Below, one piece after another: positions 11,549 to 56,937 of a stretch of DNA of 64,000 nt. This stretch comes from Armillaria gallica (Eukaryota > Basidiomycota > Agaricomycetes > Agaricales > Physalacriaceae): positions 5,425,001-5,489,000 of the forward strand of contig JBANDB010000007.1 in the NCBI GenBank assembly GCA_037576215.1, written 5' to 3'. Below the pieces are notes generated by a model. That model did not search any database and had not been told where the DNA came from. It was given only the letters and a program-made list of their open reading frames with translations. Within the stretch, counting starts at the first letter, position 1; each line of letters starts with the position of its first letter. The position numbers and the translations under genes are program-made.

Positions 11549-11553
11549 GTTGG
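11549..11553. repeat. Target-site duplication GTTGG, left side of copia element 1
   Basis: GTTGG precedes the 5' LTR and recurs at 26239-26243 after the 3' LTR. The undisturbed right palindrome arm (near 27236-27241, reverse strand) shows the pre-insertion sequence with a single GTTGG. Confidence 0.95.
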
Positions 11554-11843
11554 TGTTGACCTGCATGGGTCTTGTTGATCATTGCGGTGTTTGGCTATGG
11601 CATCTTATGTACCGTTTATTCCGGACTTTGGCTCCTTCCCTCCTTAGTCGTCTCTCTCATCTTCTTGACAATTAAGGAGGTAAGCGCTCTTGTATATCTT
11701 GCTTATCTACATACTCACATACTGTACTTACAGTCCTGACTTGTGTCCTCTGTCAATAGGTCAATACAGTCGTCTCTCTCATCTTCTTAACAATTAAGGA
11801 GTCCTGACTTGTGTCCTCTCTCGATAGGTGCAACCGATCTACA
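11554..11843 (+). repeat. Copia 1 5' LTR (290 bp) with intron and spliced-copy duplication
   Basis: The LTR has TG...CA ends. A putative 54-nt intron lies at 11680-11733 (GTAAGC...TACTTACAG). A 68-bp tandem duplication follows at 11760-11827: it starts with filler GTCAATA and then repeats the region from AGTCGTCTCTC to GATAG, but lacks exactly the 54-nt intron (AAGGAG joined to TCCTGAC at 11801/11802). The 3' LTR lacks this duplication and is 68 bp shorter. Confidence 0.92.
11680..11733 (+). other. Putative 54-nt intron in the copia 1 LTR
   Basis: It has a GTAAGC donor, a pyrimidine-rich interior with candidate branch sequence ACTCAC, and a TTACAG acceptor. The adjacent tandem copy, in which this piece is precisely missing, supports real splicing. 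The counterpart in the 3' LTR is 26143-26196. Confidence 0.8.
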
Positions 11844-11863
11844 GGTTATGGGTTTAACTTGAC
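11844..11863 (+). promoter_or_regulatory. Candidate primer-binding site of copia 1
   Basis: GGTTATGGGTTTAACTTGAC begins directly after the 5' LTR. The second copia element has a near-identical sequence in the same place (50735 on). GGTTATG is complementary to CAUAACC of an initiator-Met anticodon loop, which fits the half-tRNA priming known for some copia elements. The following bases match less well. Confidence 0.5.
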
Positions 11864-12151: not shown

Positions 12152-15100
12152 ATGGCCAATCAGCCTTGGATCTTCCGTTATCTGGTCAACAGTCTAAACA
12201 ACATCATTGGCACGTCTGATGGATCTATCCAATCCCAAAGCAATGCTACCACCCAAGTACATTCTCAGGCTTCGTCTAACGTTCCAATTAGCACCCAGTC
12301 TGCTCCGCATGTCAATCCAAATGCATATCCTTCAAACTTTCCTTCTTATATTTTTACCCTACCATTTCCGACGCATACATGAACCCTTATCCCCATCAAA
12401 CAAACCTAACAACGCAAATTCCACCACTGCATTATATACCATCTTACCAAATACAACTGCAACATTACATACAGTTTCTGAACGCTATTCCTTTTCCTTC
12501 CCTACAATCTACTGAATATAGACCAAACGGTGCAGATGGCAATCTACCTACAAACCCTCCAAACCCAAATCCTGCTCCTCCACCATTACCTCCATGTCCT
12601 CCCCCTCCTCCCATCCCTCCTCGTCCTCCTCCCCCCCCACCAGCACCACCTCGTCCATTACCTATTCCCCCTCTGACTGCTCCTCCCACTTACACTACGA
12701 TTTCAAATCCCCATCTGCCTTACATACAGCCCGCCGCACCGTACCCACCACAAAATAACAATTACCTACATATACCGCAACAAATACTGCAACCTTACGT
12801 ATATTTACCTACACACAATACCTCTGAACCTTCTTTTCCTACTACTACACATATACCAGAACTTAAAGGCCGAGCAGACTGGGGTGCTTGGAACCTAGGC
12901 GTCCTGAACATACTAACATCCCGACAGCTCAATACCCATATATGCGACCCTCCTTCTCCTTTGGTACCCCACGATCCATTCAATACCCTGTCCTATCCAC
13001 CTGTCCCAAACAAATACTCGCCTCCCCAACACTACCAAGAATGGGTTAATTGGCACAAGAAGGACGCAGTTGTGTATGGAGTACTTACGGCATGTCTTTC
13101 AAGATCTATCATTGGGATGCTTCCGCTCCAGAATGACCCTGTCACCGGAGCCAGATGCACTGCACAAGAAGCCTACCAGTCACTACGTTACCGTTATGGG
13201 GGTGGGAACATACAATACGCGCTGCTCGAACACAAAAAACTCGCTGTGACCAATTGCACTTCTATCGCTACCATACCGAATTTCATCCAGACCTGGCTAA
13301 ATCTTGCACAAACCTTGAAAGAAACAGCTGGCTATCCTCTCTCCTATGCCACACTGAGTGTTGACTTCGTGAACATGTTACCGGGCCAATACTCTGAACA
13401 CAAAAACAAAATTGCACATGAAATTAAATATCCTGCCAATTTCACTGAACAATCTTTCCATGAACTTGTTGATGAAGTACTAGACCAAGCCAACGGTATC
13501 CTCCTGAACCGTGAACTCTCCCAACTATATACAATGACCCAGCCAGATGCATCGTCTAAAGCTCCTCGTCCCCAATGTGGGAATCCCAAATGCTCCTACC
13601 CCATAGGTCACATGACCACAACCTGCTGGCACAAGGGTGGGGGTGATCCTGGTGGGAAAGAGAAATATGAGGAGAGATGCAAAGCAAAACAGATGCCCAG
13701 GGCAAACTACGCATCCAGTGAGGTACCGGGGGAAGAACCACTGGGAGAAATACCACATGACGAACCTAACAAGTCAAATACCTGTACCGAACCTGCTGAA
13801 ACCAATGAAGACATATTTTACTCGTATATCCCTGGCTCATATGAATGCATACAACCGATGACAAATGCTTTACTCGACCTACGTGAATCAAATCCAAAGA
13901 CATTTTTCTCTGCCATGCAATCCTACAACTCATTGCTTGATTCCGGTTGTACTCACCATATCATCAAAGATGGAACATACTTTCATTTGTACGATACTTC
14001 CCAAGCCATCCCAGTCACCACAGCAAACTGTGGTACACTCCCCACAAAAGCTATAGGTGAAGTCCAATTCTCCATGAACGTCAATGGTCGGACAGCCACT
14101 GTCATTTTACGAGATTGCCTTCATGCTCCTGACTCTCCGATAAACCTCATATCTGTTGGTGCTCTGACAGAGAACAGGATGTATATCGGGTTTGGAAAGA
14201 ACAAGACAACATGCTACTTTCCAAAATACCATAAAACCCTCAGCGGCCTCTCATTTCAAGCTGAAGTCATTGGCTGCCCTTCCTTCCTCAACTGTACCTA
14301 CATTCCCCTGAATGATGACATCCAGAACGCCTCTGCACACACCATACTACCATTCCAAAAACCAGAACTCGATGCATACCTTTGGCACTGCCAGGCTGGA
14401 CACCCGAGTCAGGAAACAACCAAACATATCGTTACTGGTAAAGCGAGAGTAAAAGGTGTAACCTGGAATGGCAAGGCTCCCCACGAGTATTGCCCATCAT
14501 GCATCATTGGAAAATGCCAACAAGCACTGTTCAACCATAACGCAAACCGTACCTCTACCCCACTGGAACTCCTCCACATGGATACATGCAGACCCATGCC
14601 CATCAAAATGCCACAAAAACAAGAGTACTTCTTCGCCATCTTGGAGGACTGCACATCATATAACAATGCAGATTTGATGGTGAAGAAAAATGAAGCAGCT
14701 TGCTCATTTAAAGACACTCAGGCCAAATGGGAGAACCAGACAGATGAAAAGGTCAAAAAGATACGGTGCAACAGTGCAAAGGAACTCACGAAAGGCAAAC
14801 TTGGTAAACACTTCAAAGAGTCCAGCATAGAGGTTCAGGAGACAGCTCCCTATGCTCACCAGCAAAATGGGAAGGCGGAACGCTTTATCCATACCATTGA
14901 GGATGACATCCAAACACTTCTTGCAGACTCCGGCCTTCCTATGTCTTTCTGGGGGGATGCCATTCTTACTGCTGCCTACACAAGGAGGAGGCTACCCACA
15001 TCAACTCTTCCTAACGGTAAAACACCTCATGAGGCTATGCACAACGAAATCCCAGACTTGTCACACCTGCAAAGATGGGGGTGCCAATGCTTTGTTACCA

Positions 15101-17131
15101 TCCCACCCGAACTCCGTACTAAAGCTGGCCCTAGACGATTTGAAGCGATCTTTGTTGGATATGAAGAAGGTCATATTGGATGGCGAGTAAGAGACCTTGT
15201 GGGGAAATACCATTTCTCACAAGATGTCGAATTCAATGAGAATACTCCCGGGCGACTGAGCTTGAAACGATCCCAAAAATCAAATAACCCAGACCTCTCT
15301 GACCCTGCCATCACTTCCACCCACCCGAAAAGAAACATCAAACCCACCAAAAAAATGGCAAACATCACCCCTGGTACAAAACAAGGTTACATACTCCCTC
15401 GTCTCCAATCTTCTGAAGCCTCCTCAACTTTCGCGGCTTTTTTCCGTGCAGAAACCATGATAGACTCCCCCGAACCCAAACTTGACTCCACTATCACCGC
15501 CTACCCCCATTCTATGCTCTCCTACTCGACACCCCAAACCAACAAACAGCTCTGGGATACCTCTAAACCCCCAATGACCTATAAAGAGGCCATGGCTCGA
15601 CCAGACAGTGATCTATGGCAAGTAGCTATAGATAAAGAGCACAAGAACCTTGTGGATCAACAGGTGATTGAGGAATCCTTCCTTCCCCCGGGTAAGAAAG
15701 CCATCGGCGCTAGGTGGACCTTCACAAAGAAGACCTTCCCTGAGATCATTGAAAAGGCTAGACTCGTTGCCCAGGGATTTGCACAGCGACCTGATGACTA
15801 TGGCGATACCTACATGCCTGTGGCTAAAATTGTCAGCGTTCACATCGTTTTTGCCCTAGCAGCTAAAGATGATTTGGAGCTCTTCACTTTTGACGTCAAA
15901 GCAGCCTTTCTCAATGCTCCTCTCTCACAGGAAGTCTATATCTGCCAAATACCCGGTTTCCCACTCTCTGACCTGAAAAAAGTCCTTTGTTTGCATAAGG
16001 CCCTTTATGGCCTTAAACAATCATCTCATGAATGGTATAAAACTCTTTGCAGCACTATGGATTCTGTCAGACTAGAAAGTTGCATCGTAGACCCAGCGGT
16101 TTTCTACAGCCGATGGAGCTCCCCCCCTGATCCTTCCATCCCTATGCCTGCGGACGGCTCAGACCTTTTCATAATCATCCCCGTACATGTCGACGACGGC
16201 CTCTCTGCAACTAACTCCAAATCATTGTACCTCTGGATCATCGTGCAGCTCAATAAAATCTTCAAAATCAACGACCTTGGTCCCACGGAGGTCTTCCTTG
16301 GCATCAGGATAGATCGTGATCGCCCTAACAGGAAATTATAGCTGTCACAGAAAGAGTACATTACAGACCTACTGCACACATACAACATGGACGACATCAA
16401 TCCGACCACTGTCCCTTTATATAAAAAACTACAGTCATATGAAGCTGGCGACCACACCCTCCAAGAAGTCGATGATAAGGACCTCACTCTTTACTTCCAA
16501 CGTCTCAACGGTCAACTTCTCTACCCTGCTGTTTGCACATGGCCCGATCTTTCCTTCACCACCGCTGCCCTCGGCCAATATAATGCCAACCCCACCTGAG
16601 CTGTTGCTTCCGCTGCTAAAGGTGTACTGCGCTACCTCACTGGTACCCGCAACTACTCCCTACTTTATGGGGGTGACTGTGCGAAGGACGCTGTCAAGGG
16701 ACTAGGCATTTCTTTCACTGACATGGCATTCACAGATGCTGATTGGGGAACTGATGACACAGACCACAGGAGCTTCTTCGGCTTTGCGATCTACCTCTAT
16801 GGTGGACTAGTCTCTTGGTCTAGTGCCAAACAAAAGTCTACGGCCCTATCATCAACTGAATCAGAATATATGGCACTCACACACCTAATGAAGGAATTGC
16901 TCTGGATTATTTTATTCACTAATTCCCTTTCCCTCCCGATGCCATCCCCTTTCCCCATGTTATCTGATAATGACAGCTCCCTAACCATCGCAAACTCACA
17001 ATCTAATTCTCCACGCCTCAAACATATTGACATTTGATACCATTTTATCCGTGAACAACTCAAGGCAAACACCTTCTCTACGCACTGGATACCCACAAGA
17101 TCCATGACTGCCGATGTCTTGACAAAGCCGC
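12152..17131 (+). pseudogene. Copia 1 Gag-Pol polyprotein, stops at three positions
   Basis: The main open frame (12379-16341, 1320 codons) holds a proline-rich region (residues about 60-105), a copia Gag region, a zinc-knuckle-like CGNPKC...GHMTTTC (about 400-420), protease motif LLDSGC (Asp521), the gag-pre-integrase HCQAGH...CPSC, integrase, and reverse transcriptase with FDVKAAFLNAPL and HVDDG (1270-1274). The same frame continues past stops at 16339-16341, 16597-16599 and 17035-17037 through RNase H (FTDADWG, STESEYMA). It reaches LTKPL at the nested insertion and finishes at 25938-25997. The integrase position expected to be Asp in the RSDN motif reads Asn798 (RCNSAKE), while Asp735 and Glu834 are present. 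A short frame (12152-12382) overlaps the start by ATGA and may be the displaced N-terminus of Gag. Confidence 0.93.
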
Positions 17132-19000
17132 TGAAGAGACTCTGTGCGTGCAGGCTAGAAATGCAACAGTGTCGAAGACACTGATCACACTCACACCCAA
17201 CACTACACACACAAACCCTCAAGTTCTTGGGGGGGATATTATGCGATAGAAGCAGATTGAAGCAAAACAACTAAACTCTCAGAATATACAATACACGCGT
17301 ATAGCAATAGCGCGCGTCACGTATCTAGATCTCTCTAAGTCCAAAGGCTTTTATAACAAGAGGGGCGACCAATGTCGCCGGGCCTCAAGGCAAGGTGTAC
17401 TACAATACACGATACGTCGCCACACACCCACAAAACCCTCAATAAGTCGCGCGCGTCACACACAGGTAACCACAACAACCTAAACACACTCTAAACACGA
17501 CTCAAAGCTTGCGCTCTAAGCAGAAACCCTTCACAAAACGTCCACTCAAGCCACAGGATTTGAACCTACGCACTCAAGCTTCCAAAACCAATCGTAGACC
17601 CACAGGGTTTGAACCTATGCCGATCCAGAGACACAATAACCAACTAAACCCCGTCCAACAAGCCAAAGGGTTTGAACCTCTGCCGCTTGCGGAAATGAGA
17701 ACCCTCAAGCGCGCACTAATCAAACCACAGGGTTTGAACCTGTGCCGCCTGTAGCGCGCGCTGCGTTAGAAGAAGGCCTCTGTACGAACACTAATCAGAC
17801 CAAAGGGTTTTAACCTCAGCTGCCTGTAGTATCTCGCACACAAGAAACGCCGTCCGACAAGCCAAAGGGTTTGAACCTCTGCCACTTGCGGAATGGTATA
17901 CCCAACTAAGCGCGTGCTAATCAGACCAAAGGGTTTTAACCTCTGCCGCCTGTAACACCGCGCGTCACAAGAAACCCTCAAAACTCAAGAGCGCGTCCGC
18001 AATGACACAATATCTCTTATTCTCAGGGTAGAGCGCAGTCAACCAGTCACTCAAACCATACACGAGTCCCCGCTAGGCAAGTCCCCTGCTAAGCAAGTCC
18101 CCCGCTAAGCTTTCTACGCCTCGCGCGCAACTCAATTCACTCGGTATGATATCAATTCTAGGTTTATTCTCTCGCTCGAAGTTACAAACTAATCCTGCTG
18201 CTAGGGCGTCAAGCTGGAGGCTTGCACGCGACTACAACGGGGGTCCGAAACTTGTACACTACAAGTACACTGCGCTATTTATCTATTTTACATCCTACAA
18301 ATTTGTACCACCAAATATAGTATTATTTAAGCTGCGGGGTACTTTCGCCTGCGTCCCGCGCATGTTGCAATTATCACGCCATAGCTTGGCGCTGACTCAG
18401 GAGTCTGGCCCGGGGCCAGGTCCTGTCTCTGAGTGTCACGGCATCGGTTACCAAGGCTATGACACGCGGGTTGACATCAGTTGCCATATCCCCGGAGTTA
18501 TAGCCTACCCCGCAACTCTTATTTCGCTTCCTAGTATTCTCACAGGGAATTCCATTGTAGTGAGGGCAATGTGCTTCTTGTCTAGGCCTCGCGCATTTTG
18601 GCTGAAGCCCGGAACTTCGGATTTACTTGAGTTCTGACATCTCAAGGTCTAGAACTCTAAGCTCTGGGCCTGCCATGCCTTTCGCGTCATAGATCACTGC
18701 TACGCGAAGTCTTAATTACCCCGCAAGCGTGTCCCGCGCTATTCTTAGCGCACGTATGCTTTGCCTTGTCAGAGCACTCAGTGTCAAGCACTGGGACTTC
18801 ATACCTAGTACGGCCTTTCTAGTACCATTCTCAGGTTAAGCCATGCGCTCCACCCAGCTTTACTCTGGTAATATCATTACTGGCATTATAAACACTGCGC
18901 TCTGTTGCTTTCATCATTGCCTTCATGTCTGGGCATTATTGCCTGTACTCATTTGTACAATTCGCAAATTTACACGCGTGAATGCTTTTCAAGCGTGTCA
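17132..19000 (-). repeat. 3' LTR of the gag-only element (1869 bp)
   Basis: It contains seven tandem T-arm-like units at about 17557, 17605, 17668, 17730, 17805, 17867 and 17931, each 48-75 bp apart. A pair of 15-bp-scale direct repeats (CCCCGCTAGGCAAGTC / CCCTGCTAAGCAAGTC) lies near 18065-18100. There are no coding signals. It differs from the 5' LTR by a 2-bp indel in the GCGCGC run near 17755 and a few substitutions. Confidence 0.92.
17557..17941 (-). repeat. Tandem array of seven tRNA T-arm-like stem-loops
   Basis: Read on the minus strand, units contain GGTTCAAACCC or close variants (GGTTCAAATCC, GGTTAAAACCC), matching the RNA polymerase III B-box consensus GGTTCRANYCC. Flanking bases pair into a 6-bp stem around the 7-base loop TTCAAAC: CACAGG/CCTGTG in some units and CAGAGG/CCTTTG (one G-T pair) in others. 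No A box or full cloverleaf accompanies them, so these are not tRNA genes. The array is duplicated in the other LTR (about 24494-24878) and in the solo LTR (33982-34315). Confidence 0.85.
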
Positions 19001-19013
19001 TATCCCCCTCACT
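19001..19013 (-). promoter_or_regulatory. Polypurine tract of the gag-only element
   Basis: In the minus sense GTGAGGGGGATA directly precedes the left LTR (TGACACGC), as expected for the plus-strand primer next to a 3' LTR. Confidence 0.75.
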
Positions 19014-19838
19014 AAGATCTGGACCTTCCACGGTCCTTCTCGTGTACTTCAATGGGTTTATGTGGGCCCAAGCTACCGCGGCAATGTCTAATTTTGTCAA
19101 GGAAACTCATGAGTTATCTCACAACACTTTCGCTCTCACACTTGTCTGAACTTCGTCCGGACATGCCAGCCTTTTACATCAAGCTTGCACTTAAATTTTC
19201 CAAGTTGCTGTCTCTGCCTTTCTTTTTCTCATCAACACTCGCTGCACTATTCCTGTGTTTCATGCAGGCGCGCTCGGTTTCCTATCTCTTAACTCTCTCG
19301 TTATCTCTGCACCGCGCTATGGATGACAGTAGCCTCGTTTACTCGCATCAAATAAAGCTTTAAGACTTCTGCAGCAACTTCCTTGGTGCCTGCGCATATA
19401 CTGTGAAGTATTTTGAGTCTAGGATCCTCTACTAGGTGCAAGCAGAGGAAATACATCTTGCACTCGAGAAGGCACACCCGTATTTGGTATGCGTGCATGC
19501 CCTGTGAAGGCTGCTCACTTCTAAGCTTCTCTGCTCCGACCAAGACGCAGGTCATTGTTCTCATACCCCTGCATATCCCTGTTCTGGTGAGTTATCCTTT
19601 AAACTTCTTACTCTTGTTTTCTAATCCCTCATAGGCTGCACCACTTACGCATAAACGTCAGCATGAGCAGGAAGCTTCAAACACGGTGCGCGCGACGTCC
19701 TCATGATATCTCCAGTTGGTTGACAATTATTTCCTAGACCCCCGCAGTCGAGATCTCTGTAAAGCCCTAACCTACTAGGTGCATATGCCTTGCCATACTG
19801 CGCGCTTTCTCTTTTTCATTGCATCTCTCTTTCTGCAG

Positions 19839-21853
19839 GCATACCAATAGTTCCGAGGCGAAGCCCGTTAAGGCCTCTGCACTGTCGACTACCCCGCCTA
19901 ATTATACTCTCAAAAACAAGGCCCCCGCTTCTTCGAACCTTAAAGGTGTTGTCAAGAAGCATGCCCTGTGTGGTAAGCCCCGCATCTCACGTACTGGTAT
20001 TGTCCTTCATTAATTTCTCCATTATTTTCAATAGCAGACTTGTCTTCTGCCAGCGAGGCTGAGCCTACCTCTGATGAAGAGGATGCTGCTGTTCGTATCA
20101 CAGCCATTGGTCTTAACAGGCAAGAGATGGAGCGCAATGAAATCGAAGTCCTACCAGTCAAGAAGCCTCGTCTTACATTGACTGGCAGAGCTGACCTGCC
20201 ACCACCTCGTGCATATCATCTGCTGACTGGAGCGACTCTTACAAGAGCTTTATACGTTCCTCTTTCAGTACTTCTTCACCGTGGGCCTCTTCTTCCTCCT
20301 GTTGTATCTTCTCCCAAACGAGTGCATCCTTTGCGCAGTAAGAAATCTCCCCTGCGTTCCAGCAAAGGTCATCGCAAGGCCAAAAGCTCTCCTGTTCCTT
20401 CCGAGGTTCTTTCCTATGCTACTACTCTCTCTTTCATCCCCGCGTTACACGTGGGAGTGCATCGGTTGCCCTCCCAGTGTTACATGCTGGTTATCTCTGC
20501 TTTACTCCTTGTCTGCGCGCTGTTGTCTACTCTTTTCCATTCCTCCACGCTGTCATGGATGACGACTCCGACCAGGTCCTTACACATGCACATCATGTCA
20601 ATCTCGATGACATTTGTAGCAACTTGCGTGGTGCTTGGATCTATATCGCGGCTTACTTTGAGTCGGGGGTTCTGCCTCGTGCCTCAGTTGCGGAGTTGAT
20701 TCAGGCCATGTCAAAGACCCATGCCTGCCTTGCGCGCTATCTTTCTATTTCTTTCTGATCCTGTATCTCATCCCTGCTTGTAGGATGCACATATGGATAC
20801 GCTCGTCCCCTTCAAGCTTGTTGACTCGTTCTATGGTCTCGCTCTGCGCAGTCAAATCTATCGCGTCACTCGCTGGATCCCTGCCGCGCAGCATGTGAAG
20901 GCTTGGAGAGTCTGGGAACTAACAAACTTCGAACACCTATGGAACACGGTGAGTCCCCCGCTACTAGTATCTGGTTTCTAGTTCTTTAACTCGCGTGTAG
21001 CATGATTTCCGCGAGACTCTGTGTATCCCGGGTGATCCAGGATACGTTCCCGGTGACGATTCCAGTGTCAAGGAGTCTTATCTCTGTCCTTTCTGTCTCT
21101 CAGTCGTGCCTCCACCTATCAAGCCAGCTGCCGCGCCATCTTCTTCAAAATCTGGGGATGTATCCGTGCCCTCGACTTCGAGGTATTCATGCCTTCTCTT
21201 GTATTTCTTCGCGTGCTTATTTTCCCCGCAAGCTCCCAAGGAGCCTTGTAAGTTCCGCGCTCCTCTGCATGGATTCCTGGGACTCACATTTGGTCCCTAG
21301 CATTTGCTTCTCCCACCAAGAAGCAGGTTTCCGTGGTGTTACCACCCAAAAATGCTAACCCCATGAGTTTCCTCTCGTTTTGACCGATTTCTCTCACTGA
21401 GGATGGGCTCTAGTCTCCTCCCGTGACATGCAAACGTCAGTGTGCCCCGGAACCAATCAAGACAGTGAGTCTCTCTTCCTTGCTTCCTTCCGTGTCTCAA
21501 CACTGGCCTAGCCTACGGTTCTCAAAGTTGAAAAGGTACCTCCCGTTAAGTGAGTCTCCCCTTCTTCCGCGTATCTCATTACCTTCCTTGGCTGACAATT
21601 CTCTAGGCCTGCGGCTCCCAGGCGAGCTGTTCAGATGCGCGCTACAGCTAAGACGAAGGTTCCTGCACCAACCAATCCTGCCCCCGCTGTCAGGAAGCTT
21701 ATCCTCGTGGGTAAGCTCTTTTACTCTCTTTTATTTCTCTACAGTTTCCTAGAGCCCTATTTACTGCGCTCTATAGTGCATTTTCTTGTGTCCATAGATT
21801 TTGAACACCTAAACCATGGCGCGTCTCCTGGCACGTATCTTTTCTCACATTGA
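19839..21853 (+). CDS. Intron-containing cargo gene, antisense to the gag-only element; function unknown
   Basis: A series of plausible exons is joined by fungal-type introns. Clear ones are 19973-20034 (GTAAGC...CAATAG), 20949-21000 (GTGAGT...GTGTAG) and 21711-21797 (GTAAGC...CCATAG). Exon translations are protein-like: LNRQEMERNEIEVLPVKKPR with a basic KKPR patch, a block containing AAYFESGVLPRASVAELIQ, then YRVTRWIPAAQHVKAWRVWE, which reads in phase across the 52-nt intron into HDFRETLCIPGDPGYVPGDD. The C-terminal part is Pro/Ala/Lys-rich and ends near 21853. Start and several joins (about 20.2-20.55 kb and 21.2-21.5 kb) are uncertain. No known domain is recognised. Lying antisense to the element's RNA would protect its introns from removal during retrotransposition. 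Confidence 0.5.
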
Positions 21854-22814
21854 TGTCACCATGTAGTGACGTATACTAATGGTTCAATCATGCTCTGGAT
21901 TTGGTTTTCCTCCTTTGCGCGGTAGCTCCTCCTTTTGCACGGTTCCTTTCTGTTGTACAGAAATCGCAAAATTTATTGTACCTTTATCGGTAGTATAGAA
22001 ATGGTAATACCTTCGGTATACCACTATATCCCCCACACTAAGAAAACTTGACTGTCCTCAGTCATAAAACCAAATATTCTCGAACTCTGTTCTGTTCCTC
22101 GTTTTGCTCTAGGAATTTTCTCAATCGCATTGACTACTTGCAGTCATGGCAAGAGTTGCTTGCCTCTGTGATCTCGTGTTCGCATTAAGTGCAAGTCCCA
22201 GGGCATTTAAATTTGCCTAGTCTTTGCGCTCCTTGCTTCGATTTTCTGATCATCGCCTTCCTCATGATGGCGGTTGAAGCAGAGGTCTCCCAGGCATCTA
22301 ATTCTCTCGTTTTTATCAGGATAAGGTCGCGCGCTACTGCAGTGAGTGAGCCCCGCAATGAATCACATAGAGTGGGATATCAGTCTCGCTCTACTGATAT
22401 CCCCCCCACTAAGAGCTCTTGTTCCTCGGTGGACCCTTTGCACTCTGCTCATTGCTGCCTTATCACTCTTCTCTTCATAGGTTCCCATCACTTAATTGTT
22501 TCTAGTGAAGAGCACGAAACCTGTATTATTTCACTGGACCTTCCTGCTTATTGGCATTAGTTCCACATGAAACCGTAAGAGATATTGTCTCTAGCTCCGA
22601 TTTTGCATTGCGCGCAGTAGGTATGGTCTTTGGATGAGGTCCCTCCATACCCACTTTATATTACTCTCTCTTGGTGCGCGCATGTCCTGCAAATTCATCA
22701 GATGAGTTCTCCATTGCTTTACTCTTATCGCACGATGTTTCTTGTGGTTTCTGGCATCTGCGAGGGTTGATGGTGAACGAGACATTGTGATTCCCATCCT
22801 CGTTTATCATGCGA
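21854..22814. other. Interior of gag-only element between cargo gene and gag, no ORF recognised
   Basis: This stretch lies 3' of both convergent units and shows no convincing coding frame; short frames are shadows. The sequence CAGTCTCGCTCTACTGATATC near 22380 is preceded by a similar GTGGGATAT motif. No protease or reverse transcriptase motifs were found on the minus strand downstream of gag. Confidence 0.5.
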
Positions 22815-23777
22815 CTAGAAGAAACCCTGTTCTCGCTCCTCATCTGTAGGCATGCGCTCTAGAGGATCATCTGGAGGTGGATCTTCACTATGAGTTATAA
22901 ACTCCATATCATCAGCCTCCTGCCATAATCCTGTCATATGCACCTGGCGCTCTTGCTCTAACTCATTTTGCAGTAGCGCACATATATCTTTTTGGTACTC
23001 GCTCATGGCCTTTTCTAAGCTGGCTAGTCTCTTCTCGCACATGGCGGTTTGCTGTTCCATGAAGTCCATCATGATAGCCATGAGGCCTCCCATATCTTCC
23101 TGCTTAACCGCTCTGTCTTCTGCTGCGGGGGAGTTATGCGCGGCAGCCAGAATACCTCTCACTTCATCTCGATTTCTGTCCATAGACGAAAACACTCCTT
23201 GCAGCACAGTCAAGCCAGCCTCTGTAACCTCTTCCAGTGTATACGGATCTGCATGCTCCCTTTCGGTTAAGCCCTTCGGCAGTGGTAGGCGCTCTAATTG
23301 TAGCTTGATAGCTGCGTACAATTCATCTGACATGGGTGTCAAAAAGGTATCAACCAGTTCTCTGTTCGACAGTACTTTGCTTAGCGCAGACGCAAGTACT
23401 TGAAACTCCCTTTTGAACTCCATGAACTGACTCTTGTCAGATACCCACGCTATCTTGTAGCGGTGGACTAATCTCTTCAATTCTTGAACAGTGTCACGGT
23501 CGCTATCGCGCGCACCATCATAGCACTCTATTACTTCCAACTTGAACTCTTCGTACTTGCCACCAGCGGCATATTTGGGAAGGACCTTCCACTGTCGCTC
23601 TGTCTTAATATCGGTATATGACAGCATGGCTTTCTTCTTGTCCTCCTCATCAGTCACTGCACATTTGGCAAAGAGATCTTCAAGTCTAGCAAAGAAGCGC
23701 TCGAGCTCCTCAGGATGCGAGGAACTCTCAAATTGTGGGGCGGCCTTTTCATTTGGGCCAGGCATAGATGATACCAT
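22815..23777 (-). CDS. Ty3/gypsy-type Gag protein (320 aa)
   Basis: One uninterrupted 320-codon frame starts with ATG about 290 bp inside the 5' LTR in the element's sense. The layout matches the basidiomycete gypsy Gag pattern: a short N-terminus (SSHPEELERFFARLEDLFAK), a segment with YTDIKTERQWKVLPKYAAGG and YEEFKLEVIECYDGA, a block containing DTVQELKRLVHRYK, and a long helical capsid-like region to about residue 200. It ends in coiled-coil and acidic sequence. Gag forms the virus-like particle in which reverse transcription occurs. There is no zinc knuckle and no pol follows, so pol must be supplied by another element. The intact frame fits recent activity. Confidence 0.8.
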   Translation of the reverse strand: MVSSMPGPNEKAAPQFESSSHPEELERFFARLEDLFAKCAVTDEEDKKKAMLSYTDIKTERQWKVLPKYAAGGKYEEFKLEVIECYDGARDSDRDTVQELKRLVHRYKIAWVSDKSQFMEFKREFQVLASALSKVLSNRELVDTFLTPMSDELYAAIKLQLERLPLPKGLTEREHADPYTLEEVTEAGLTVLQGVFSSMDRNRDEVRGILAAAHNSPAAEDRAVKQEDMGGLMAIMMDFMEQQTAMCEKRLASLEKAMSEYQKDICALLQNELEQERQVHMTGLWQEADDMEFITHSEDPPPDDPLERMPTDEEREQGFF

Positions 23778-24052
23778 CTTTTCAATTCTTTCAGATGTGC
23801 GGGATCGTTAAATCCAGCGGTTGGTTTGTTATAGGCTGCGAGTTCGAGTTTTAAACGCTTCCTGGCTAGCAGATATTGCGCCTGTCAAGGAATTCACAAC
23901 CCTTTTCACTAGTAGTACTCAATAATGAAGAGCGACTAGCAGATTTGCTTTTAGAGAAGGAGATTGTCAATAGCTATGAGCGCGTTACTCTGCGCGCGTA
24001 GGTAATTCGTTTGAATCTAGTTGTTGTTTCAGAGTTGAAACTGCTTTCCCCC

Positions 24053-24070
24053 CTCGCGGTGGGCTCCAAA
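24053..24070 (-). promoter_or_regulatory. Candidate primer-binding site of the gag-only element
   Basis: In minus sense, TT then TGGAGCCCACCGCGAGG follows the 5' LTR end (TCTTCA). TGG at the start is expected from pairing with a tRNA 3'-CCA end. The tRNA species is not identified. Confidence 0.5.
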
Positions 24071-25937
24071 TGAAGAGACTCTGTGCGTGCAGGCTAGAAA
24101 TGCAACAGTGTCGAAGACACTGATCACACTCACACCCAACACTACACACACAAACCCTCAAGTTCTTGGGGGGGATATTATGCGATAGAAGCAGATTGAA
24201 GCAAAACAACTAAACTCTCAGAATATACAATACACGCGTATAGCAATAGCGCGCGTCACGTATCTAGATCTCTCTAAGTCCAAAGGCTTTTATAACAAGA
24301 GGGGCGACCAATGTCGCCGGGCCTCAAGGCAAGGTGTACTACAATACACGATACGTCGCCACACACCCACAAAACCCTCAATAAGTCGCGCGCGTCACAC
24401 ACAGGTAACCACAACAACCTAAACACACTCTAAACACGACTCAAAGCTTGCGCTCTAAGCAGAAACCCTTCACAAAACGTCCACTCAAGCCACAGGATTT
24501 GAACCTACACACTCAAGCTTCCAAAACCAATCGTAGACCCACAGGGTTTGAACCTATGCCGATCCAGAGACACAATAACCAACTAAACCCCGTCCAACAA
24601 GCCAAAGGGTTTGAACCTCTGCCGCTTGCGGAAATGAGAACCCTCAAGCGCGCACTAATCAAACCACAGGGTTTGAACCTGTGCCGCCTGTAGCGCCGCG
24701 CGTTAGAAGAAGGCCTCTGTACGAACACTAATCAGACCAAAGGGTTTTAACCTCAGCTGCCTGTAGTATCTCGCACACAAGAAACGCCGTCCGACAAGCC
24801 AAAGGGTTTGAACCTCTGCCACTTGCGGAATGGTATACCCAACTAAGCGCGTGCTAATCAGACCAAAGGGTTTTAACCTCTGCCGCCTGTAACACCGCGC
24901 GTCACAAGAAACCCTCAAAACTCAAGAGCGCGTCCGCAATGACACAATATCTCTTATTCTCAGGGTAGAGCGCAGTCAACCAGTCACTCAAACCATACAC
25001 GAGTCCCCGCTAGGCAAGTCCCCTGCTAAGCAAGTCCCCCGCTAAGCTTTCTACGCCTCGCGCGCAACTCAATTCACTCGGTATGATATCAATTCTAGGT
25101 TTATTCTCTCGCTCGAAGTTACAAACTAATCCTGCTGCTAGGGCGTCAAGCTGGAGGCTTGCACGCGACTACAACGGGGGTCCGAAACTTGTACACTACA
25201 AGTACACTGCGCTATTTATCTATTTTACATCCTACAAATTTGTACCACCAAATATAGTATTATTTAAGCTGCGGGGTACTTTCGCCTGCGTCCCGCGCAT
25301 GTTGCAATTATCACGCCATAGCTTGGCGCTGACTCAGGAGTCTGGCCCGGGGCCAGGTCCTGTCTCTGAGTGTCACGGCATCGGTTACCAAGGCTATGAC
25401 ACGCGGGTTGACATCAGTTGCCATATCCCCGGAGTTATAGCCTACCCCGCAACTCTTATTTCGCTTCCTAGTATTCTCACAGGGAATTCCATTGTAGTGA
25501 GGGCAATGTGCTTCTTGTCTAGGCCTCGCGCATTTTGGCTGAAGCCCGGAACTTCGGATTTACTTGAGTTCTGACATCTCAAGGTCTAGAACTCTAAGCT
25601 CTGGGCCTGCCATGCCTTTCGCGTCATAGATCACTGCTACGCGAAGTCTTAATTACCCCGCAAGCGTGTCCCGCACTATTCTTAGCGCACGTATGCTTTG
25701 CCTTGTCAGAGCACTCAGTGTCAAGCACTGGGACTTCATACCTAGTACGGCCTTTCTAGTACCATTCTCAGGTTAAGCCATGCGCTCCACCCAGCTTTAC
25801 TCTGGTAATATCATTACTGGCATTATAAACACTGCGCTCTGTTGCTTTCATCATTGCCTTCGTGTCTGGGCATTATTGCCTGTACTCATTTGTACAATTC
25901 GCAAATTTACACGCGTGAATGCTTTTCAAGCGTGTCA
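24071..25937 (-). repeat. 5' LTR of the gag-only element (1867 bp)
   Basis: It is nearly identical to 17132-19000. Seen differences include a C/T change near 24508, a 2-bp indel with changes near 24692, G/A near 25674 and A/G near 25861. It carries the same seven-unit T-arm-like array (about 24494-24878). In minus sense it drives transcription toward gag. Confidence 0.92.
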
Positions 25938-26016
25938 CCGCTCTCATCTGTTCTTCACAAGGCACACGTTAAAGGACTAGGGCTTGTTCCTCATTGACAC
26001 CTCAATGATGGGGGTG

Positions 26017-26238
26017 TGTTAACCTGCATGGGTCTTGTTGATCATTGTGGTGTTTGGCTATGGCATCTTACGTACCATTTATTCTGGACTTTGGCTCCTT
26101 CCCTCCTTAGTCATCTCTCTCATCTTTTTGATGATTAAGGAGGTAAGCGCTCTTGTATATCTTGCTTATCTACATACTCACATACCATACTTACAGTCCT
26201 GACTTGTGTCCTCTGTCGATAGGTGCAACCGGTCTACA
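26017..26238 (+). repeat. Copia 1 3' LTR (222 bp)
   Basis: It starts TGTTAACC and ends TCTACA, and matches the 5' LTR minus the 68-bp duplication. The putative intron is at 26143-26196. The purine-rich tract AATGATGGGGGTG precedes it, and GTTGG follows at 26239-26243. Confidence 0.93.
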
Positions 26239-50474: not shown

Positions 50475-50734
50475 TGTTGGGAGGTGTACTGCTGTACTGG
50501 ACTGATTTGGATGTCATGGACGCATTCCACATGGGTGTCTTTGTTTATGCTTATGTGATGTTGCGATACATATATATATGCATTCCCTTCTTTCCTTTCT
50601 CCTCAGTCACTCTCATCACCAGTCTGAGATCCTGAGGAGGTATGTTTTCTCTATTACTGTTATTCTACCACCTTTTACTTACTGTACCATTAGCTCATGC
50701 TGTTGTGTCATTGGTACAGGTACCTAGTCTAATA
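50475..50734 (+). repeat. Copia 2 5' LTR (260 bp)
   Basis: The TATA run (ATATATATATG, near 50568-50580) lies about 30 bp ahead of CTCAGTCACTC. The stem-loop CTCCTCAG...CTGAGGAG is at 50599-50639. The putative 54-nt intron is 50640-50693 (GTATGT...CCATTAG). This LTR lacks the 68-bp duplication present in the 3' LTR. Confidence 0.93.
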
Positions 50735-55726: not shown

Positions 55727-56054
55727 TGTTGGGAGGTGTACTGCTTTACTGGACTGATTCAGATGTCATGGACATGTTCCGCATGGGTGTCTTTGTTTAT
55801 GCTTACATGATGTTGCAATACATATATATATGCATTCCCTTCTTTCCTTTCTCCTCAGTCGTTCTCATCACCAGTCTGAGATCCTGAGGATGTATGTTTT
55901 CTCTATTACTGTTATTCTACCGCCTTTTACTTACTGTACCATTAGCTCATGCTTTCGTGTCATTGGTACAGGTAATTCAGTCATTCTCATCACCAGTCTG
56001 AGATCCTGAGGAGCTCATGCTTTTGTGTCATTGATACAGGTACCTAGTCTAATA
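55727..56054 (+). repeat. Copia 2 3' LTR (328 bp) with intron and spliced-copy duplication
   Basis: The putative intron is 55892-55945. A 68-bp tandem copy (55972-56039) starts with filler GTAATT and then repeats CAGTC...CCTGAGGAG joined directly to CTCATGC (56013/56014), with the 54-nt intron absent. This mirrors the 5' LTR of copia 1. Confidence 0.92.
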
Positions 56055-56650: not shown

Positions 56651-56937
56651 TGATGCGTGCCGTGCATTCTTAGTCATATGATTTTCACATGATGTCACGG
56701 ACACTTAAATAACGGTTTTCCTTTCTTTCCCTCCTTGTTGAGGCTGTGCTCATTCAGCTACTTACGGTTACTATATTTACTTATTCTGTACCTTATTCCG
56801 ACTATCTATCTGACCATATTCTACCCGATTATCAACGCGCTTGCTGCCTGACTGACACTCCTCAGTCGCTTATCCATTCCCGAGCCCTGAGGAGATGGCT
56901 AATATTCGTGTCTATGGTACAGGTACCTGGTCTAACA
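56651..56937 (+). repeat. Solo LTR of a copia 2 relative
   Basis: It shares GATGTCACGGAC (copia 2 GATGTCATGGAC) at the expected offset, TTCCTTTCTTTCC, the stem-loop CTCCTCAG...CTGAGGAG, and the end TGGTACAGGTACCTGGTCTAACA. AATT(T) occurs at both ends (56647-56651 and 56937-56941), a candidate target duplication. After CTGAGGAG no intron is present and the sequence resembles the spliced form. Confidence 0.7.

Follow-up and report, generated by a model that had tools for sequence, protein, structure and literature searches.

How can a spliceosomal intron persist inside the long terminal repeat (LTR) of an element that replicates through RNA? The question is raised by a Copia element, Copia 1, in a 64,000-nt stretch of Armillaria gallica contig JBANDB010000007.1 (hereafter the window), whose 5' LTR holds two versions of the same segment in tandem, one interrupted by 54 nt with GT and AG borders and the other with the flanks directly joined. 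Copying of RNA back into DNA normally eliminates introns, and their retention inside LTR repeats is therefore unexpected; further, the R part of the LTR must match at both ends of the RNA. We consider it likely that a large group of Copia elements in this genome has a spliceosomal intron in the R part of the LTR, which is carried through reverse transcription via a pre-spliced copy. The intron seems to be kept because the repeat also holds a spliced copy where new DNA can land.

Two Copia elements in the window

We denote LTRs with the intron and a pre-spliced copy as T, those with the intron alone as I, and intronless ones as S. The first copy is parsed into e1, intron 1 and e2, and the second into e1' and e2'. 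In window coordinates, the features are:

11554-11843, + strand: Copia 1 5' LTR, T form, with the target site duplication (TSD) just before it and the primer binding site (PBS) at 11844
11640-11645, + strand: predicted hairpin 5' arm CTCCTT, running on into e1; 5' of the putative transcription start
11646-11679, + strand: e1, the first exon copy; putative transcription start site (TSS) at 11646, from the second copy beginning at the same base
11680-11733, + strand: intron 1, 54 nt, GTAAGC..CTCAC..TTACAG; GT-AG borders and branch-like CTNAY with its A 16 nt before the end
11734-11759, + strand: e2, first copy
11760-11827, + strand: 68-bp GT..AG unit made of filler, e1' and e2'; probable second intron and landing site
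11760-11767, + strand: filler GTCAATAC, 8 nt; common to L002, L004 and L005 as GTCAATA(N)
11768-11801, + strand: e1', the second e1 copy, identical to e1 at 33 of 34 positions
11802-11827, + strand: e2', abutting e1' without an intron; exon join at 11801/11802
11828-11843, + strand: remainder of U5 of the Copia 1 5' LTR
11844-11863, + strand: PBS GGTTATGGGTTTAACTTGAC, with the same start after both 5' LTRs of the window
12292-16341, + strand: Copia 1 open frame of 1349 codons, its stop falling within the RVT_2 domain
26017-26238, + strand: Copia 1 3' LTR, I form, without the unit; TSD GTTGG adjoins its 3' side
50475-50734, + strand: Copia 2 5' LTR, I form; TSD AACCC
55727-56054, + strand: Copia 2 3' LTR, T form; the tandem arrangement spans 55857-56039
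55892-55945, + strand: intron 1 of the Copia 2 3' LTR, 54 nt
55972-56039, + strand: 68-bp GT..AG unit of the Copia 2 3' LTR, with e1' and e2'

The bounds of the Copia 1 5' LTR follow from the TSD GTTGG at 11549-11553, which recurs past the 3' LTR. Our coordinates agree with the first-pass annotation of this DNA, which had described a first copy with a 54-nt GTAAGC...TTACAG segment and a 68-bp second copy joined at 11801/11802; the filler that it placed before the second copy is also present, its length being 8 nt (GTCAATAC, 11760-11767) rather than the 7 nt (GTCAATA) given there. The two LTRs of Copia 1, T at the 5' end and I at the 3' end, are 94% identical to each other. A search with the 28-nt spliced junction, allowing up to 3 mismatches, returned a single match in the window and none in 100 shuffles, and a chance origin of the tandem copy was set aside on this count. 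Assembly error was likewise set aside, the arrangement being present on many contigs and in many families. An insertion at 17241-26016, which contains six copies of a 49-nt repeat (17583-17957, spacing 62-75) with the common core GGGTTT(G/T)AACCT, appears to split Copia 1 close to its 3' LTR.

The two window elements are Copia (Pseudoviridae-type) LTR retrotransposons, with the Pol domains and 5-bp TSDs of that class: SH3_retrovirus, Pol_BBD and RVT_2 exceed the Pfam cut-offs in both, with Copia 2 split over two frames, and matches below the cut-offs were obtained to gag_pre-integrs in both and to rve in Copia 2. Their PBS GGTTATGGG is presumably of the half-tRNA(iMet) type. Copia 1 and Copia 2 share 60% identity in the reverse transcriptase part. 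At a greater distance, the reverse transcriptase lying between the LTRs of family F4 is 37% identical to that of Copia 1. The best named protein match is from Armillaria ostoyae (70% over the reverse transcriptase part), with others from further mushrooms and from metagenomes; a scan of IMG/VR returned no relatives outside this genome. Many contigs bearing the protein relatives are about 5.5-6 kb long, carry a single long Copia frame and may be whole elements. Also in the window, at about 56857-56937, lies a fragment resembling an intronless F2-type LTR (CTCCTCAG...CTGAGGAG, followed by an end with GGTACAGGTACC).

Spread of the arrangement within the genome

Genome searches with the two window LTRs yielded 13 and 16 places, and a reverse transcriptase search 121, around a choice of which, together with PBS and LTR searches, LTR regions were taken. 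The tabulation of LTR forms that the first-pass annotation had called for could thus be run on this genome: the 67 Copia LTRs parsed, which come from 38 elements or solo LTRs, comprise 31 T, 29 I and 7 S forms. An intron lies within the LTR in 15 of the 16 Copia family labels with readable LTRs from this one genome; the exception is family C, known from two members, whose LTRs are plain and contain neither intron nor tandem. Twelve of the 15 labels include the T form (F1-F4, A, B, D, E, Fx, H, K and J), and F5, F6 and F7 have the I form only; the labels are partly related to each other, with E, Fx and K sharing similar LTR starts. The tally leaves out the truncated L013, the partial L107, the no-intron family (L099, L100, L116, L119), repeats under other loci (L030-L050, L052, L054-L056, L072-L087, L091), the partial L095 and L101 (replaced by L115 and L117), and L051, L053, L060 and L061, i.e., 4 of the 12 5' regions of one set, in which no LTR was recognised.

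The form differs between the ends of the same insertion in 10 of 29 pairs, and T/T pairs account for another 10. Within the Copia 1 clade, 9 of 20 pairs are I/I, and two elements, Copia 1 among them, are 5' T and 3' I. A rule under which each 3' LTR is T was dropped, as all three expected cases (F5, F6, F7) failed by being I in both LTRs. In a flank test of 31 rows, 5-bp TSDs were matched automatically in 23, comprising 21 element pairs (one of them from the no-intron family) and 2 solo LTRs, with one row scored as 6 bp and the A2 pair lying outside the test. Four further rows were matched by eye from the flanks, F4 and H match at 4 of 5 bases, and no matching duplication was found in these flanks for the F3 elements on C15 and C12; the LTRs of the former are therefore paired by position only.

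Signatures of splicing in the LTR

Intron 1 is 51-57 nt long, starts with GT and ends with AG in all 21 subfamilies parsed. Each of these also has a branch-point-like CTNAY in the last 35 nt of the intron, located 11-17 nt before its end, against 9.4 subfamilies expected from shuffles. The motif test was run without families A and J, which have a shorter, type II layout with a single 54-nt intron whose last part is e1'. In the seven S LTRs, from F1, F2, F4, A and J, e1 is joined straight to e2, and two of these are solo LTRs with target duplications. Such an exact join is the footprint expected from splicing followed by reverse transcription. Hence, the comparison of LTRs supports the presence of a spliceosomal-type intron, and the earlier proposal that LTR RNA was spliced and then copied back gains weight from the GT/AG ends and branch-like motifs of the 21 subfamilies and the intronless LTRs of five families. 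In the F4 5' LTR (L092), GTACGACAC at the beginning of the filler and GTGTCGTAC close to the end of the intron make up a perfect inverted repeat, which encloses the acceptor and e2 and could hide the acceptor in the 3' LTR.

The 68-bp unit as a probable second intron

The filler starts with GT in all ten type I T families, and e2' ends with AG. The unit looks like a second intron because this GT persists even where the following U5 has none: the U5 after e2' starts with AT in F4 and H and with CG in D, though the fillers there start with GT. Thus, the 68-bp unit is probably an intron itself, as the first-pass annotation had entertained, with a donor that looks weak in F1 (GTCAAT). The leader predicted upon removal of intron 1 and the unit, e1-e2-U5, equals the LTR read from e1' onward, and taking out the single intron of the type II layout also yields an e1-e2-U5 leader. 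The correspondence between the copies is close: e1 and e1' show 0-2 differences in 29 of the 31 T LTRs, and 6 and 4 differences in the remaining pair of LTRs. Within three F1 subfamilies, the closest counterpart of each e1 is its own e1', at 0-2 differences as opposed to 3-5.

The fillers bear on how the tandem arose. One explanation holds that each T LTR is made anew by spliced strong-stop cDNA jumping end to end to the RNA 3' end, with no annealing. It would accommodate the base before e1', which varies among otherwise near-identical insertions of family F3 (see below), and the A/T-rich fillers have short A runs that could be tail remnants. However, the remaining filler bases do not vary within families or across diverged subfamilies: GTCAATA is common to three diverged F1 subfamilies, GTAAAATA to five F3 insertions, and GTAATT is a further case. 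The invariant GT start of the filler in the ten type I T families and the presence of the T form in both LTRs in 10 of 29 pairs also speak against it, and we regard it as improbable. Given the shared fillers and the T form in 12 of 15 labels, inheritance via annealing to a pre-spliced copy fits better than repeated jumps, and the first-pass suggestion that a fresh jump made the Copia 1 LTR is not sustained, though such a jump may have founded the arrangement originally.

Possible marks of strand transfer in a young family

Family F3 has five insertions, with LTRs that are 99-100% identical save for one rearranged copy. Their 5' LTRs comprise four I forms and one T form, the latter being the one rearranged in U3, and the five 3' LTRs are T without exception. 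Over the first 213 bases, variation is confined to three columns, all at CpG (a count from 9 of the 10 LTRs, leaving out the rearranged C12 5' LTR). The differences between young copies in F3 (L062-L070) and between L092 and L093 are mostly C-to-T or G-to-A at CpG, resembling methylated-CpG decay. With the rearranged LTR set aside, the sole variable base of F3 outside CpG directly precedes e1': it is T, T, T, G and A in the five 3' LTRs, and the base preceding e1 is invariant in all ten LTRs. If transcription starts at e1, strong-stop cDNA would have its 3' end at this position, which supports the earlier suggestion that the start of the second copy corresponds to the end of such cDNA.

A further mark comes from variants of the first-copy e1 that are common to both LTRs and absent from e1', which we found in the C13 element of F3, in F4 and in H. 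These fit a derivation of the first copies from the RNA 3' end and of e1' from the RNA 5' end; all three are at often-mutating CpG sites, and therefore parallel change is possible in single cases. The L067 3' LTR of F3 has a 1.3-kb insert (C14:1984755-1986045) with the inverted ends CATCAGCAAT / ATTGCTGATG at the e1'-e2' join, a location that may be chance.

These patterns also bear on a second explanation, in which the T form goes back to an ancient tandem duplication that plays no role in reverse transcription, and the other forms arise through recombination between direct repeats. Deletion between e2 and e2' would give I and that between e1 and e1' would give S, exactly the forms observed, and the two 5' T / 3' I elements are compatible with such loss, one of them (Copia 1) having LTRs that are only 94% identical. 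On the other hand, e1 and e1' are near-identical while the families diverge, the base before e1' varies, and in F3 the unit is missing from 4 of 5 5' LTRs and from none of the 5 3' LTRs, which random loss after insertion does not predict. As a general account this seems to us unlikely, to the same degree as recurrent end-to-end jumps, though recombination of this kind may explain some I forms, and post-insertion loss of the unit is a possibility for the two 5' T / 3' I elements. Least credible by far is that the 54-nt segment is no intron and that the copies differ by ordinary insertion or microhomology deletion: the segment and the preceding exon both end with AG, giving 2 nt of microhomology, but the same GT..AG loss is seen repeatedly, both in five families with intronless LTRs and in the second copies of ten families, and the intron ends and branch-like motifs are found in 21 of 21 subfamilies.

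A predicted hairpin at the donor

Directly 5' of e1, the U3 sequence is complementary to the 3' end of e1, and in 22 of 23 LTRs the longest helix stops exactly at the donor. In folds that include 25 nt of U3, the last six exon bases pair with the segment from U3 to TSS+5 at a probability of at least 0.99 in 22 of 23 LTRs (0.67 in A, which has no ungapped helix at the donor in this test); folded from the TSS on, without U3, the same six bases show values of 0.00-0.48. For the Copia 1 row (F1a), the values are 1.00 with the 25 nt of U3 and 0.00 without. When the context is lengthened to 40 nt of U3 plus 40 nt of intron, donor positions -3 to +6 become more paired in 12 of 23 LTRs and less paired in 11; the narrower 25-nt fold was designed after this mixed result and is therefore not an independent confirmation of the hairpin.

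The controls give a graded picture. Considered alone, the stem surpasses shuffled U3 at P < 0.05 in 7 of 23 LTRs in the longer-context test and in 10 of 23 in the 25-nt test. By fold energy, A, D, E and J lie below all 200 U3 shuffles, and the nine other labels are matched by 5-23 of 200; Fisher's combination gives 2e-9 for the 13 labels and 2e-7 with the Copia 1 clade entered as one value (that of F3). Compared with the U3 of the 12 other labels, the own U3 has the lowest energy in 5 of 13 labels, and a U3 from a foreign lineage is equal or better in 8 of 13, several of them sharing the arm motif. U3-only pairing is just 0.50 in 4 of 13 labels (F4, B, E and H), shuffles of the pyrimidine-rich U3 also pair well in the Copia 1 clade (mean 0.71-0.92), and second copies retain pairing of at least 0.45 via an inner stem in 6 of 13. 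Hence, the inverted repeat at the donor is well supported in four lineages, and an effect of the hairpin on splicing is a prediction from folding. As the 5' arm of the hairpin lies upstream of the putative TSS, only the copy at the RNA 3' end could have the exon side of its donor covered in this way.

A proposed self-restoring intron

The architecture and its spread, the exact loss of the intron, the near-identity of e1 and e1' and the variation of the junction base are read from sequence, and the hairpin comes from folding alone, with mixed controls. From these we infer splicing of the RNA, where it starts and ends, the succession of strand transfers and a possible role in blocking premature polyadenylation in the 5' LTR, which would combine into the following cycle. 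First, the RNA would start at the AG of e1, leaving the donor free at the RNA 5' end, and intron 1, along with the GT..AG unit in the case of T-type 5' LTRs, would be spliced out to give the leader e1-e2-U5. Second, in the 3' LTR part of the RNA, the U3 hairpin would cover the exon side of the donor, and this copy would stay unspliced. Third, we take the RNA 3' end to lie in e1' or beyond it; we identified no polyadenylation site for these LTRs. Fourth, strong-stop cDNA of e1-e2-U5 would anneal to the matching e1' (and e2'), and its extension through the filler, e2, the intron and U3 would restore both the intron and the unit. Fifth, landing of the cDNA on e1 would instead produce the S form, and landing of an incomplete strong-stop cDNA on e2 the I form.

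Textbook plus-strand transfer does not yield the F3 pattern of 5' I and 3' T. An additional step would be needed as the 5' LTR is made, for example skipping from one e2 repeat to the other or changing template to a spare strong-stop cDNA. The I/I pairs (F5, F6, F7; 9 of 20 in the Copia 1 clade) indicate that elements have also moved without a pre-spliced copy in either final LTR, and the self-restoring cycle leaves them unexplained.

On this evidence, the tandem layout is a conserved architecture rather than a single accident, and a self-restoring intron is its best-supported explanation. With slightly less assurance than for the pre-spliced route as such, we think it probable that this widespread Copia group combines a spliced R at the RNA 5' end with a pre-spliced DNA landing copy in the 3' LTR, so that a structure-gated intron is removed from the 5' end of the genomic RNA and rebuilt with each insertion, and new LTR pairs are not necessarily identical.

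Relationship to known systems

In the first-strand transfer of retroviruses and Ty1/copia elements, strong-stop cDNA anneals to the repeat at the RNA 3' end (R-R). In contrast to this textbook scheme, the 5' repeat would here be spliced, and its 3' partner would be a pre-spliced DNA copy downstream of the unspliced one.

The closest parallel that we can draw is with the foamy viruses, which are retroviruses and for which we know of neither a complete intron with donor and acceptor within the LTR nor a pre-spliced second copy. In foamy viruses, U1 binds the major splice donor, which lies in R, near the start of the RNA, whereas at the RNA 3' end another structure, seen with U3 bases -13 to -1 included, limits donor access; this also decides the place of polyadenylation (PMC3694450). 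The present elements likewise have a donor in R, and the masking that folding predicts for them, with mixed controls, would resemble the foamy virus one. Unlike the foamy viruses, the present elements are Copia elements, with a full LTR intron and a pre-spliced copy.

BARE of barley is likewise a Copia element; its spliced RNA reportedly takes part in the cycle, and neither an LTR intron nor a second copy of R is known to us from it. The RNAs of BARE fall into distinct pools (PMC3735527). As in the S forms, spliced retrotransposon RNA is copied into the genome in the human L1 SpIREs (PMC5860796). Unlike L1, which has no LTR, the elements described here keep the spliced copy beside the intron. 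A literature search over titles and abstract openings, covering few subscription journals, gave among the matches listed no published description of an LTR intron with a pre-spliced R copy.

If the proposed cycle is correct, these Copia elements would represent a standing solution by which reverse-transcribing elements keep introns, with a spliced leader. It would also suggest the coupling of a splice donor with RNA structure as a way to read through the 5' LTR but not the 3' LTR. Further, the paired LTRs of an element could no longer be assumed to be identical at insertion, and structural differences between them from the start would affect both the dating of insertions and LTR-finding software.
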